From positions 1 through 33,219 of the forward strand of contig JAUIFY010000028.1 in assembly GCA_030430245.1 (NCBI GenBank): a DNA stretch of 33,219 nt. The letters are read 5' to 3'. Within the stretch, counting starts at the first letter, position 1. Every line of letters starts with the position of its first letter. Under the pieces are notes generated by a model. That model was not told where the DNA came from, made no database searches, and saw only the letters and a program-made list of their open reading frames with translations. Positions 23,894 to 28,164 of the stretch are shown here, piece by piece. The position numbers and the translations under genes were made by a program. Source of the stretch: a bacterium. Lineage in GTDB: Bacteria > Desulfobacterota > Binatia > UBA12015.

Positions 23894-24772
23894 GTGAGCG
23901 TCGCGGTGCTGGCGGTGTTGTTCCACCGCGTCGGACTCGCCGACGTCCTCGAGATCTGCCTCGCGGCACGCCCGGAGCTCCTCGCGCTCGCCTTCGTCCT
24001 CTACGCGACCGGCCAGGTCGTGAGCGCGATCCGCTGGCACGCCCTCACGAGCGGGGTGGGGTTCTCGGTGCCGACGATCGAGTGCGTTCGGATCTACTTC
24101 ATCGGCATGTTCTTCGGCCTCGCGATTCCGAGCACCCTCGGCGCCGACGGGGCCCGCACGCTCTACCTGGGACGCGAGCCGCCCGGCGCGACGCGCGCCC
24201 TCTCTTCGGTCGTATTCGATCGCTGGCTCGGGCTCGTCTCTCTCGTGGCGATCGCCGTCGTCGCGCTCTCGATCGGTCCCAGCGAGGACCTGCCCGCACC
24301 GTTGGTCTCGGCGATCCTCGCGCTCGGGGGCGGCTTGCTCGTAGCCTGGGTGCTGGCGCGACCCGCGGCGCGGCTCCTGCCGTCGGAGTCGCGTCTGCGC
24401 GGCCTCGTCGACCGGGATCTCGCGCCCTACTTCCGGGACGGCCGACTTCTCGCGCGCGCGACCGCGCTGTCCGTCGGCGTGCACGGCATCCAGATCGTCA
24501 CGCAGAAGGTCCTCACGGATGCGCTGGGCCTGTCCGTTCCGTTCGAGTTCGTCGCGATCTACCACCCGTTGGTCGTGCTGGCCTCCGCCGTCCCGATCAC
24601 GATCGGCGGCTTCGGACTCCGGGAGGCCGCGTACGCCTACCTGCTGCCGCACGCCGGGATTGCGAGCGACGACGCCGTCGCGCTCGCTCTCTTGTGGTGG
24701 GCGATCGGCGCGACGGGCGGTCTCCTCGGAGGCGTGCTCTACGCGGCGAGCGCTCGACCCGCGAAGGGTTGA
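23894..24772 (+). CDS. Flippase-like membrane protein (LPG synthase TM family)
   Basis: A 292-residue polytopic membrane protein of the lysylphosphatidylglycerol synthase transmembrane-region family (also called UPF0104/flippase-like). About seven helices are visible. Family marks are AIRWHALTSGVG after the second helix, IGMFFGLAIPSTLGADGAR (about 72-90), SVVFDRWLGL, and the C-terminal VPITIGGFGLREAAYAYLL. Such proteins are thought to move lipids or glycolipids across the inner membrane. GTG 23894 is the first allowed codon, but the frame upstream reads on to the N-terminal helix without a start, so a few residues may be missing or the start is unusual. It converges with the dehydratase-mutase gene (8 bp between stops). 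Confidence 0.85.
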   Translation: MSVAVLAVLFHRVGLADVLEICLAARPELLALAFVLYATGQVVSAIRWHALTSGVGFSVPTIECVRIYFIGMFFGLAIPSTLGADGARTLYLGREPPGATRALSSVVFDRWLGLVSLVAIAVVALSIGPSEDLPAPLVSAILALGGGLLVAWVLARPAARLLPSESRLRGLVDRDLAPYFRDGRLLARATALSVGVHGIQIVTQKVLTDALGLSVPFEFVAIYHPLVVLASAVPITIGGFGLREAAYAYLLPHAGIASDDAVALALLWWAIGATGGLLGGVLYAASARPAKG

Positions 24773-24780
24773 GCCCGGCT

Positions 24781-25977
24781 CTACGAGACCGGCGGGATCG
24801 CGCGGATCGCGCGCGCAATCCCGCGCAGGTCCTCGTCGTCGAGTCCCGGCACGGGGGCGTCGCGGCGAAGCGCCGTGACCAGCTCTTCTTCGGACGCCTC
24901 GACCGGCGCCGCCCACACCAGAGTCGTGCGGATGGCGACGTCGATGCGGTCGATCGCTGGACGGAGATCGTCGGCGAGACTCGGTAGGACGGCCGGATCC
25001 ATTGCGGACGGCTGCGAGAGCACGGCGCGCTGCACCGCCTTCGCCGCCGCGAACTCCGCCCGCACCAGCGCCAGGTACGCATCGGGGTCGAGGCCCGCGC
25101 GCGCGGCCGCATCCCGTGCCTTCTCCCGAATCGCCGTCTCACGGTCGGGCGCGTCGACGGGCAGGCCGCGGGCGCGCTTCACCTCCGCGACGAGCGGCAT
25201 CAACATCAGCCGCTGCCCGAGATGGTCGATCAGCGTCGCCTCGTCGATCGGGAGATCCGGCCGCTGAGGATCGTCGAGCCACACGCTCCGCTCGGTCTCG
25301 AGCCAGCGGTTGGCACCGCGCGTGCCGATCCACTGGTTCATGTCGAGGACCAGCTCCGGGCGCTTCGGTGAAACCCAATACGCCTTCCGATCGCGCGCGA
25401 GCACCTCGGCGACCTCGGTGTCGAAGTCGAAGCTCTTCGCCTCGAGCGTATCCGTCACCACGGCGTGTGCGCGTCCGCCCGCGAGTAGGTCCGGAAGGCT
25501 CCGATTGTCGTCGACGGCCCGGATCGTCGCCTCCTCGAAGCGATCACGAGCGAGCCGCTCGAGATGCCCACCGCGATTCACGACGATCACGACACCGCGG
25601 CGATCGAGATCCTCGGTGCTGCGGCCCTTCCGCACGAGGACGATCGCATCGGCCCGGGCCACCGACGCGGTCATCGGCGCGCGCGCCAACCGGTCGCCCC
25701 GCACGGTGACGCCGCTCATCGCGACGTCGAACTCCCCCGCGAGGAGCCGCGGCTCGAGATCCGGCCAATCGAACGGGACGATCTCGACGGTCAGGCCGCG
25801 ATCGCGCGCGTACGCATGGGCGACCGAGATGTCGAAGCCGTGGCGGGAGCCTCCCTCCTCGACGACCGAGAACGGCGGGTAGTCGCCGCTGGTGCCGACC
25901 CGGAGAGCCGGCCGCGCGCTGCAGCTCGCGACGAGGAGCAGCGCGGTCGCCATCAGGTACCGGATCCGCCGGCGCAT
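24781..25977 (-). CDS. Secreted fusion of cyclohexadienyl dehydratase and chorismate mutase
   Basis: A 398-residue exported lipoprotein. The lipobox is LVASC (Cys19). Residues 24-232 form a periplasmic-binding-protein-like domain of the cyclohexadienyl dehydratase (PheC) type: RVGTSGDYPPFSV, GFDISVAHAYA, FDWPDL...FDVAMSGVTVRGDRLARAP, VVVNRGGHLE (for NPGGTNE) and VVTDTLEA. Residues 239-395 form a type II chorismate mutase of the secreted AroQ-gamma kind. The spacing of Arg239, Arg256, Lys267, Arg279, Glu280 and Gln316 closely follows Arg11, Arg28, Lys39, Arg51, Glu52 and Gln88 of the E. coli enzyme. Together they could turn chorismate through prephenate into phenylpyruvate outside the cytoplasm. 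ATG 25977 gives the lipoprotein signal. The fusion is the unusual point. Confidence 0.85.
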   Translation of the reverse strand: MRRRIRYLMATALLLVASCSARPALRVGTSGDYPPFSVVEEGGSRHGFDISVAHAYARDRGLTVEIVPFDWPDLEPRLLAGEFDVAMSGVTVRGDRLARAPMTASVARADAIVLVRKGRSTEDLDRRGVVIVVNRGGHLERLARDRFEEATIRAVDDNRSLPDLLAGGRAHAVVTDTLEAKSFDFDTEVAEVLARDRKAYWVSPKRPELVLDMNQWIGTRGANRWLETERSVWLDDPQRPDLPIDEATLIDHLGQRLMLMPLVAEVKRARGLPVDAPDRETAIREKARDAAARAGLDPDAYLALVRAEFAAAKAVQRAVLSQPSAMDPAVLPSLADDLRPAIDRIDVAIRTTLVWAAPVEASEEELVTALRRDAPVPGLDDEDLRGIARAIRAIPPVS

Positions 25978-26022
25978 CCGATGTCGCTTGTCGCGATCCG
26001 GGACCTCCGCTAGCGTCCGCGC

Positions 26023-26637
26023 ATGATCGCGTGTCTGGACCTGGAAGGTGTTCTCATCCCGGAGATCTGGATCAACGTCGCCGAGCGCACGGGAATCGAA
26101 GCTCTTCGCCGTACGACGCGCGACGAGCCCGACTACGACAAGCTCATGCAGTACCGACTGGGCATACTCGATGAACACGGCATCACTCTCGGTCAGATTC
26201 AAGAAGTCATCGACGGGATGGGCCCCCTCGACGGCGCGGCCGAGTTCTTGGATTGGCTGCGCGCGCGCGCCCAGGTGATCATCCTCTCCGACACGTTCTA
26301 CCAGTTCGCCCAGCCGCTGATGCGCCAACTGGGCTACCCGTGTCTGTTCTGCCACGCCCTCGAGGTCAACTCCGACGACCGTGTCACGGGCTACGAGCTC
26401 AGAATCGACGATGGCAAGCGCCGTGCGGTCGAGTCCCTGCGCGCCCTGAACTTCCGGGTCGTGGCGTCGGGCGACTCGTACAACGACACGACGATGCTCG
26501 GTGTCGCCGACGCGGGCATCCTCTTCCGGCCTCCCGACAACGTCATCGAAGAGTTCCCCCAATACCCCGTCTGCCGCACGTACGACGAGCTGAAGAAGGC
26601 CTTCGTCGCGGCGAGCGCCGGAGAGATTCCAGGCTGA
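26023..26637 (+). CDS. thrH: Bifunctional phosphoserine phosphatase/homoserine phosphotransferase
   Basis: A 204-residue HAD-superfamily enzyme of the ThrH kind, which dephosphorylates phosphoserine and can move the phosphate to homoserine. Motif I is [13 protein letters not shown] (Asp6, with Glu in the acid-base place, as typical of ThrH), motif II is [11 protein letters not shown] (about 90-100), and motifs III/IV are the lysine in DDGKRRAVE and [10 protein letters not shown]. The start at ATG 26023 is directly before motif I, and length and sequence pattern match the family fully. It is divergent from the dehydratase-mutase gene (45 bp between starts), so the two share one short control region. 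Confidence 0.95.
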
Positions 26638-26694: not shown

Positions 26695-27159
26695 ATGTAT
26701 CACCTGCCCAAGCAGCTCTTCATCGAGGTCAAAAAGCACGCCCGAGAGGCGTTCCCGGAGGAGTGCTGCGGCTTCATTCTGTACGACGTCGACAACGACG
26801 AGGAAGTGGTTCGTCGCATCACGAACGTGGCGACCGCACGGCACGAGAAGGACCCGGAGACCTTCCCACGCGATGGGACCGACGGGTACATCATGGACGA
26901 GAAGGAGCTCCTGGGCGTCTCGCAAGAGATCGACTCGCAAGACTTCGAGCTCCGTGCGATCTATCACTCCCACCCGAACGGCAAGGCCTACTTCTCGAAG
27001 GAGGACGAGGCCCGGGCCAAGATGTTCGACGAGCCGATCTACCCGGACGCCGTCTACATCGTGATCGGGGTCGACGAGCAGTCGATCACCGGCATGTCGG
27101 GTCACATCTGGAACGAAGAGCGCCTCGAGTACGAGGAGCTACGCGTCGTTCCCAGCTGA
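26695..27159 (+). CDS. JAMM/Mov34-type metallopeptidase (M67)
   Basis: A 154-residue zinc isopeptidase-like protein. The catalytic glutamate lies in PEECCGFIL (about 19-28) and the zinc site is HSHPNGKAYFSKED (HxHP-x6-S-x2-D, about 91-104). Bacterial M67 proteins of this size often act with a ubiquitin-like sulfur carrier (ThiS/MoaD type) to remove C-terminal residues, in cysteine or other sulfur-transfer pathways. No such carrier is next door, so the partner is unknown. It starts 58 bp after thrH on the same strand and overlaps by 21 bp, tail to tail, with the flippase-like gene on the opposite strand. The start ATG 26695 is the natural N-terminus. Confidence 0.92.
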   Translation: MYHLPKQLFIEVKKHAREAFPEECCGFILYDVDNDEEVVRRITNVATARHEKDPETFPRDGTDGYIMDEKELLGVSQEIDSQDFELRAIYHSHPNGKAYFSKEDEARAKMFDEPIYPDAVYIVIGVDEQSITGMSGHIWNEERLEYEELRVVPS

Positions 27160-28164
27160 CCCACCCCGCGCCGGACCCCGGCGAAAGATCGCAGACGCCG
27201 CGAGGTAGAGGACTCCCGGCACCGTCCAGCCCATGTCTCGTACCCGCGCCGCCGTCGCCGCGACGATCGCGAGCCGGGGGTCGTCCTCCGCGAGACCGAA
27301 CACGGCCGCCTGCGCGCCCTCGAGTGCACCGAGGGACGCCGGAACGGGAAGCGCGTGGGCGAGACCGACGCCGAGCAGCGCTCCGGCCAGATCGGGGAGG
27401 GTGGGCCAGATTCCGAACGCGATGAAGAGGACCCCGTACTCGGTCAGGATGATCGCGTTCAGGACGAGCGATGCGGCGAGCGCGCCCGCCAACATGCGCG
27501 GCTGCGCGAAGAGGAGCTCCCGGAGGGCATCGTCCGTACGCTGGATCGCATCGGCCGAAGCCCCGAGCCGATCGAGGACGGTCGTCATGCGCTGCGGAAC
27601 GATCGACCCGCCACGCTTCAGTCGTCGGACGAGAAGCGCGGTGACGGCGAAGAACGCGATCCCGCTCAGGACCACCACGACCAGAACCCGCGACGCGGTC
27701 TGCTGATCGCGCAGAGCGAACAGAGCGCAATAGGCGACGGCGAACACGACGTTCGCGATGAGCTCGAGGGCGCGATCCACGGCGACGCTCGCGATGGCTG
27801 GCCCACTCGGGACGCCGTCCTTCGCGATCAGGTAGGCACGCAGAGGCTCGCCTCCGAGCTTCGCGCCCGGGGTGAGCGTACCCACGGCGAGACCGGCGAC
27901 GCGCACGCCGACGAGTCGTCCCAGCGGGACATGCGCCCCGAGGCTCCGAAGCAGCATCCGCCAACGCAGGGCGAACCCCACGAAGATCACCCCCTCGACG
28001 GCGAGCCACACGACGAGCCATCCCGGCCGCACGTTCGCCAGCGTGTCCCAGACGTTCTCCACCCCGGCTCGCCGAATCAGCGCGACCAGAGCGACGAGTC
28101 CCAGCACCGCGAGCAGCGTGCGCCAGAGCCGGCCTCGCCCCTCGGAAGTCCGACGCTCGCTCAT
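27139..28164 (-). CDS. Second flippase-like membrane protein (LPG synthase TM family)
   Basis: A 341-residue polytopic inner-membrane protein of the lysylphosphatidylglycerol-synthase TM family. It has seven to eight helices. Family signs are FVGFALRWRMLLRSLG after the second helix, GTLTPGAKLGGEPLRAY (about 92-108), SVAVDRALELIANVVF and the C-terminal LPVPASLGALEGAQAAVFG. The ATG overlaps the exporter stop by 4 bp, with a strong GGGGAGG ribosome site, so the two are translated together. This member belongs to the lipid-export operon and probably helps move its product or a carrier lipid. It is distinct from the flippase-like gene at 23894, which lacks the PGAKLGGEP form. Confidence 0.88.
   Translation of the reverse strand: MSERRTSEGRGRLWRTLLAVLGLVALVALIRRAGVENVWDTLANVRPGWLVVWLAVEGVIFVGFALRWRMLLRSLGAHVPLGRLVGVRVAGLAVGTLTPGAKLGGEPLRAYLIAKDGVPSGPAIASVAVDRALELIANVVFAVAYCALFALRDQQTASRVLVVVVLSGIAFFAVTALLVRRLKRGGSIVPQRMTTVLDRLGASADAIQRTDDALRELLFAQPRMLAGALAASLVLNAIILTEYGVLFIAFGIWPTLPDLAGALLGVGLAHALPVPASLGALEGAQAAVFGLAEDDPRLAIVAATAARVRDMGWTVPGVLYLAASAIFRRGPARGGSAGNDA

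Follow-up and report, generated by a model that had tools for sequence, protein, structure and literature searches.

Within the window, i.e. the whole stretch of 33,219 nucleotides that was analysed, an open reading frame on the minus strand (24781–25977, stop codon included) begins with an ATG at 25977, ends with the stop codon at 24781–24783 and encodes a protein of 398 amino acids. The N-terminus of this protein is briefly basic and then hydrophobic, and leads into a lipobox, LLVASC, which was read by eye and ends in Cys19, the predicted lipidation site; signal peptide and lipobox together make up residues 1–19 (MRRRIRYLMATALLLVASC; 25921–25977, minus strand). They are followed by a cyclohexadienyl dehydratase (CDT)/PheC-like domain at residues about 20–236 (25270–25920, minus strand), assigned on the basis of Pfam SBP_bac_3 (residues 25–227, E 4.9e-20, above the curated cut-off), phmmer, residue counts and VIA-align, and by an AroQ-gamma chorismate mutase (CM) domain at residues about 243–398 (24784–25251, minus strand), assigned from Pfam CM_2 (residues 248–316, E 2.1e-10, likewise above the curated cut-off), residues and VIA-align. 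The match of TIGR01806 to the CM domain stays below its cut-off. A phmmer search against solved structures placed 5jos, an ancestral cyclohexadienyl dehydratase, first and the bifunctional enzymes 8cq4, 8cq6 and 8cq3, each a cyclohexadienyl dehydratase joined to a chorismate mutase, second to fourth, and an AlphaFold2 model of the whole fusion, built on 25 homologous rows, reached a pLDDT of 93.6 and a pTM of 0.90, with pLDDT below 50 at residues 1–14. Judged from sequence and model, the protein is a predicted lipoprotein with an N-terminal CDT/PheC-like and a C-terminal AroQ-gamma CM domain. The preliminary description of this DNA had proposed one exported-looking protein carrying both domains, which is borne out by the open reading frame, the Pfam matches and the lipobox read by eye; among the fusion copies, a simple lipobox pattern matched in 23 of 29.

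A spacer of 45 bp (25978–26022) separates the gene from the divergent thrH (26023–26637, plus strand), the product of which was identified as ThrH (phosphoserine phosphatase/homoserine phosphotransferase) by NCBIfam NF010109 with 321 bits, over the cut-off. A sigma-70 and terminator scan of positions 24600–26200 found nothing. The opposite-facing layout recurs in all 12 fusion-bearing relatives of the same family, where the fusion faces thrH and a JAB-domain gene. In the window, the JAB-domain gene (26695–27159) overlaps tail to tail by 21 bases with a second lysylphosphatidylglycerol-synthase-like gene (27139–28164), which was named from sequence likeness. Elsewhere, the fusion lies immediately behind dapA-dapB and in the same orientation in three genomes of family f8 (loci L060 in G039, L062 in G045 and L121 in G388), adjoins a MatE gene at the four loci examined in f4 and adjoins a Mur ligase gene at eight loci of f11, f13 and f15. 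Since the gene context varies by lineage, it indicates no single role. In L060 and L062 dapF lies ahead of dapA-dapB, and in G039 the last four bases of dapB are shared with the fusion frame according to our own gene calls. Genes at the loci were called with a home-made heuristic, which overlooked the fusion in two loci and also the thrH of the window.

Nine of the 12 same-family relatives (L004–L008 and L015–L018) show no in-frame ATG, GTG or TTG in the range of 14–45 codons before the lipobox cysteine. Counting the window, 11 of 13 loci have this cysteine a multiple of three nucleotides away from the start codon of thrH, which was placed by eye (87–147 nt), and the chance that a single 32-codon stretch in these frames is free of ATG, GTG and TTG is about 0.22. 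A non-standard or far-upstream start of the fusion is possible in these start-less relatives.

A profile of 25 fusions detected the fusion at E ≤ 1e-40 in 44 of the 148 genomes of the window's class, its own genome included and partial genes at contig ends counted. The bearers belong to eight families (f1, f4, f5, f6, f8, f11, f13 and f15), and in f1 a single genome out of 14 is without it (G013, 81% complete). A search with the protein itself through 58 genomes, the window's own and 57 relatives, gave a match at E ≤ 0.001 in 40, the weaker matches covering the SBP-like half only. In a sample of 297 genomes from the phylum, full-length matches were restricted to four, all of them in the window's class and the window among them, while the remaining matches listed were to the SBP-like half only; at most six candidates per genome were scored in the phylum and at most 13 in the class. 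The strongest half-length match of the phylum (L074 in G159:C35) is a free-standing classical CDT from elsewhere in the phylum with all nine PaCDT residues. When the 148 class genomes were searched with PaCDT, the best hits were the fusions and the others reached at most 75 bits, so that no separate PheC was recognised among them. A plasmid search gave no match covering 80% of the fusion query. The NG86 dN/dS values of the window fusion against two same-genus copies were 0.17 and 0.16, which are rough because dS exceeds 1, and the range of 0.12–0.17 within the genus reflects purifying selection; two fusion pairs of f6 are under weaker constraint (0.48 and 0.23). A chance read-through or a chimera is ruled out by the presence of the fusion in 44 of 148 class genomes together with the dN/dS of 0.17 and 0.16.

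The preliminary description had implied that a PheC-AroQ fusion was new, which it is not, as such fusions were published in 2023. Stocker et al. (PMC10520331) describe exported CM-CDT fusions from nine species of beta- and gamma-Proteobacteria with crystal structures, the CM domain coming first in the gamma- and the CDT domain first in the beta-Proteobacteria, and term them extremely rare. Seven were tested there, of which six had both activities and the seventh, which was poorly soluble, showed no CDT activity in complementation; all nine retain all nine CDT pocket residues (PMC10520331). Among the papers listed by the literature searches, none was on fusions of the lineage described here.

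The mutase residues of the window protein are Arg256, Lys267, Arg279, Glu280, Lys313, Gln316 and Arg339. Five of them (Arg256, Lys267, Arg279, Glu280 and Gln316) had been named beforehand with reference to their spacing in the E. coli CM, and were found at the numbers claimed. Arg49, Lys60, Arg72 and Arg134 of MtCM correspond to Arg256, Lys267, Arg279 and Arg339, and Asp69 of MtCM to Ala276; the residue alignment agrees with the claim of an intact AroQ-type mutase site in the window protein. Among the aligned fusions, and counting the rows with a residue at the respective column, Arg49 (Arg256) is found in 29 of 29, Lys60 (Lys267) and the Glu after Arg72 (Glu280) each in 28 of 28, Gln at position 109 in 25 of 27 and Arg134 in 24 of 26, some of these counts meaning little on rows L010/L011, L017, L020 and L027. 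Position 72 is Arg in 18 of 28 rows and Gln in the other 10. The Gln rows are the sub-group L021–L026 and L028–L031 from families f4, f5, f8, f11 and f13, and the secreted CM 2gbb likewise has Gln at this position. Ala312, Lys313 and Gln316 of the window align with identical letters in 2gbb, and AfCMCDT, an active enzyme, has Ala at Thr105, Lys at Glu106 and Gln at Glu109 according to the published description (PMC10520331).

As VIA-align of the full model mostly covered residues 21–245, residues 239–398 were modelled alone. This CM model gave a Z of 20.4 to 8pnj, 19.3 to 2gbb and 17.7 to the secreted CM 2f6l, and altogether 15.5–20.4 to 14 secreted or fused AroQ-gamma entries over 145–153 residues, compared with at most 8.7 to the other CMs listed, the value of 8.7 belonging to an E. 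coli CM. The secreted AroQ-gamma CMs (2gbb, 2fp1/2f6l, 6cnz) resemble the window CM in predicted fold and in the Arg/Lys/Gln mutase residues, and differ from the fusion in being free-standing. The gamma CM-CDT proteins (AfCMCDT 8cq3, 8pnj) share with it the same two domains and the Ala/Lys/Gln mutase trio, and the CM domain of AfCMCDT is the best structural match of the window CM (Z 20.2–20.4); unlike the window protein, they have the reverse domain order, and AfCMCDT is reported to retain all nine CDT residues (PMC10520331). Residues and predicted fold suggest that the mutase half is probably active.

The dehydratase half retains six of the nine CDT pocket residues. In detail, Tyr33, Trp71, Asn134, Asn158, Thr175 and Glu179 of the window protein correspond to Tyr22, Trp60, Asn128, Asn152, Thr169 and Glu173 of PaCDT (PheC of Pseudomonas aeruginosa, 5hpq/3kbr), and Ala111, His138 and Leu139 stand where PaCDT has Lys100, Thr132 and Asn133. 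It shares with PaCDT the predicted fold, the general acid and five more pocket residues; unlike PaCDT, the window protein is without Lys100, Thr132 and Asn133, and PaCDT is without a CM domain. These residues were counted in an alignment of 29 fusion rows that includes the window, the near copies L010/L011, L017, which is cut by a contig end, and the broken-frame rows L020 and L027, L032 having been excluded as a binding protein. Two smaller alignments drew on these rows, A1 with 25 of the 29 fusions (without L010, L017, L020 and L027) and A2 with 24 of those (without L031). Tyr22, Trp60, Asn128, Asn152 and Glu173 are retained in all 29 rows and Thr169 in 23, as are Arg112 and Lys225 in all 29, the equivalents of which bind the sulfonate of MES in JbCDTCM (PMC10520331). 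None of the 29 rows has a Cys at either column of the CDT Cys pair, the only Cys of the window protein being Cys19. Two of the rows look broken: L027 (G017) has two stops within the fusion frame, and in L020 (G043) the alignment is lost once the CM domain has begun.

At the three changed positions the fusions are uniform in type. Position 100 of PaCDT is Ala in 27 rows and Val in two, position 132 His in 25 and Tyr in four, and position 133 Leu in 27 and Met in two, so that the Lys, Thr and Asn of PaCDT occur in none of the 29. The triad of Ala/Val, His/Tyr and Leu/Met is therefore present in 29 of 29 fusions from seven families, and also, together with Glu173, in all 30 fusions of a second, overlapping set which adds family f15. 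Such a uniform triad across families speaks for selection of a changed pocket and against decay. It would also suit a CDT half that uses another substrate or yields another product, such as arogenate or another prephenate decarboxylation product; the attached mutase, however, supplies prephenate and nothing direct speaks for another substrate, so that we consider this explanation rather improbable.

As controls, 11 classical CDTs have Lys, Thr and Asn at positions 100, 132 and 133, and Glu173 is missing from 11 of 11 binding proteins, both counts of 11 applying after L152 (Niveispirillum), one of 12 putative CDT rows, which has none of these three residues and lacks the acid, had been regrouped as a binding protein before the tree was calculated. 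Stops in control rows were read as X, and L125 has one. The non-catalytic binding protein AncCDT-1 (5t0w) has Gln, Gln, Ser and Val at the aligned positions 100, 128, 133 and 173. With Asn128 and Glu173 present and Lys100 and Asn133 absent, the window lineage shares only the former pair of these four with the enzymes. The exchange Glu173Gln is described as inactivating PaCDT, and the equivalent exchange as inactivating two fusions (PMC10520331). In the structure of JbCDTCM, Lys127 (Lys100 of PaCDT, via a water) and Thr159 (Thr132) both contact the sulfonate (PMC10520331), which suggests that a His at position 132 could replace the lost Lys. Taken by its residues, the CDT half probably keeps a dehydratase-type chemistry within a rebuilt pocket. 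Loss of essential PheC residues, which the preliminary description had regarded as the sign of a mere binding protein, was found in part: the acid Glu179 is kept, while Lys100, Thr132 and Asn133 have become Ala, His and Leu. The proposed route from chorismate to phenylpyruvate is accordingly upheld as far as the mutase site is concerned, and, with the general acid kept but three pocket residues replaced, its last step is plausible.

Structure prediction of both halves, which the preliminary description had suggested, yielded a CDT-type fold for one and an AroQ-gamma fold for the other. Residues 21–237 of the model align with PaCDT (5hpq) with a Z of 27.5 and an rmsd of 2.3 over 216 residues. 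The Z was 28.5 to AncCDT-1 and 25–27 to many amino-acid binding proteins, and as these values are about equal to that of PaCDT, the fold alone does not separate an enzyme from a binder. The good fit, together with the Pfam label SBP_bac_3, would also be expected if the fusion were an uptake protein, namely a typical solute-binding protein of an ABC transporter to which a CM has been appended. However, neither the five window neighbours scanned (one of which matched nothing) nor 19 scanned neighbour proteins in other families (four of which matched no family) gave a match to an ABC permease or ATPase, and Glu173 is present in 29 of 29 fusions, which makes this role hardly credible. The full model superimposes on 8cq4, 8pnh and 8cq6 with an rmsd of 23–24 A, whereas the single domains superimpose on CDT or CM structures with 2.0–2.7 A, suggesting that the predicted packing of the domains differs from that in these three structures.

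The phylogeny of the fused forms was calculated from the CDT domain with 52 rows (30 fusions, 11 CDTs and 11 binding proteins), the gamma fusions being left out. The fusions of the class form one clade (100/99) and the classical CDTs another (86/92), which includes PaCDT and, next to it, the beta CDT-CM enzymes Ds and Jb. A single clade of class fusions and beta CDT-CM enzymes was rejected (p-AU 0.003), so that this analysis, which had been proposed beforehand, separates the two; from these sequence comparisons, the fusion lineage is separate in origin from the beta CDT-CM enzymes. L019 (G020, family f8) is exceptional in that its CDT domain groups with f1 (92/90) instead of the other f8 copies. 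Its neighbours differ too, with a UvrD-type helicase gene overlapping the start of the fusion and a histidine kinase downstream, and the odd place in the tree together with the different neighbours may reflect a transfer.

A position of the class fusions nearer to the CDTs has a support of 78/72, but the alternative that joins them to 10 of the 11 binding proteins is not rejected (p-AU 0.306), so that the tree does not decide between CDTs and binding proteins. The p-AU of 0.306 is in line with a protein whose CM would make prephenate outside the cytoplasm and whose CDT-derived half would only bind prephenate or phenylpyruvate, as a non-catalytic receptor or binding protein. So are the loss of three of nine pocket residues including Lys100 in 29 of 29 fusions and a fold that fits binders as well as PaCDT; Stocker et al. 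moreover propose a role in sensing or signalling for their active fusions (PMC10520331). A pure binder, however, would need no acid, and all 29 fusions retain Glu173 and Asn128, neither of which AncCDT-1 has; in addition, among the neighbours scanned a sensor kinase was found only beside the fusion of G020. We therefore regard a purely binding CDT half as fairly unlikely, although it is the most probable of the alternatives.

Compared with the published beta CDT-CM proteins (JbCDTCM 8cq4, DsCDTCM 8cq6), the window lineage has the same domain order, a predicted export signal, an AroQ-gamma mutase and, in relatives, PheA alongside. Unlike them, it is of separate origin (AU p = 0.003), the window protein is without three of the CDT pocket residues and without the CDT Cys pair, and the domain packing of its model is predicted to be different. 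The lineage also differs from several published fusions in that no transport partner was found among the neighbours scanned (PMC10520331).

The genome of the window, which is 87.5% complete, gave no match to PF00800 (PDT), and PF01817 (CM_2) matched the fusion only. Replacement of CM-PDT (PheA) was suggested by the empty PF00800 result and was countered by the PDT of relatives and by a contig end. PDT is present in 55 of 57 relatives and in all 47 good-quality genomes, three genomes of the same genus carry both fusion and PDT, and the two PDT-less relatives have a completeness of 88% and 63%. Fusion-bearing genomes mostly match CM_2 at two sites, and the stronger match lies directly before PDT. 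When the DNA around pheA of G001 was compared with the window's genome, the only long match was to the part that follows pheA; it lies on contig C282 (9667 bp) and breaks off 20 bp before this contig ends, so that pheA most likely lies in an assembly gap. A housekeeping phenylalanine enzyme in place of PheA would account for the PF00800 and PF01817 results in the window's own genome and for the three f8 fusions that follow dapA-dapB, but with PDT so general among the relatives, same-genus fusion carriers included, with a genome of 87.5% completeness and with a contig that ends 20 bp beyond the pheA-downstream match it is very improbable. A housekeeping biosynthetic route is unlikely since the fusion-bearing relatives also have the cytoplasmic CM-PDT. 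Stocker et al. argue against a role in phenylalanine synthesis for the same reason, as all nine of their organisms are stated to have an intracellular CM-PDT (PMC10520331).

The explanation that we favour with somewhat better than even confidence is an envelope lipoprotein enzyme, the CM domain of which would make prephenate and the CDT-derived half of which would bind and most likely aromatise it. In this scheme the AroQ-gamma domain would convert chorismate reaching the periplasm or the surface to prephenate, which would be bound by the CDT-derived domain and lose water and CO2 by acid catalysis with Glu179 as the general acid, giving phenylpyruvate or a close analogue. The cationic Lys100 being gone, His138 at the old position of Thr132 may contact the substrate carboxylate. 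Domain make-up, predicted folds, residue conservation and lineage are what the analysis shows directly, whereas both activities, the role of His138 and the location of the fusion are what we infer. An overflow route, or the scavenging or sensing of chorismate that lysed cells release, were considered as possible uses.

Compared with the published fusions, the new features are the origin separate from the beta enzymes, the wide distribution in one class and the consistently altered CDT pocket. More tentatively, the fusions might be one more class of exported fusion enzymes acting on chorismate, of independent origin and spread over eight families of one bacterial class. In their pocket a His at position 132 would have taken over the positive charge formerly at position 100, and they would handle prephenate with an altered specificity or act as a catalytic surface sensor. 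That 44 of the 148 genomes carry them suggests that the two domains were joined more often than the two times inferred so far, a count for which separation was tested against the beta fusions, and that selection has kept them together. Since its pocket has changed naturally while the general acid has stayed in place, the lineage would allow CDT residues that are needed for catalysis to be told from those that serve substrate fit only, and it bears on why cells export enzymes of the shikimate pathway.
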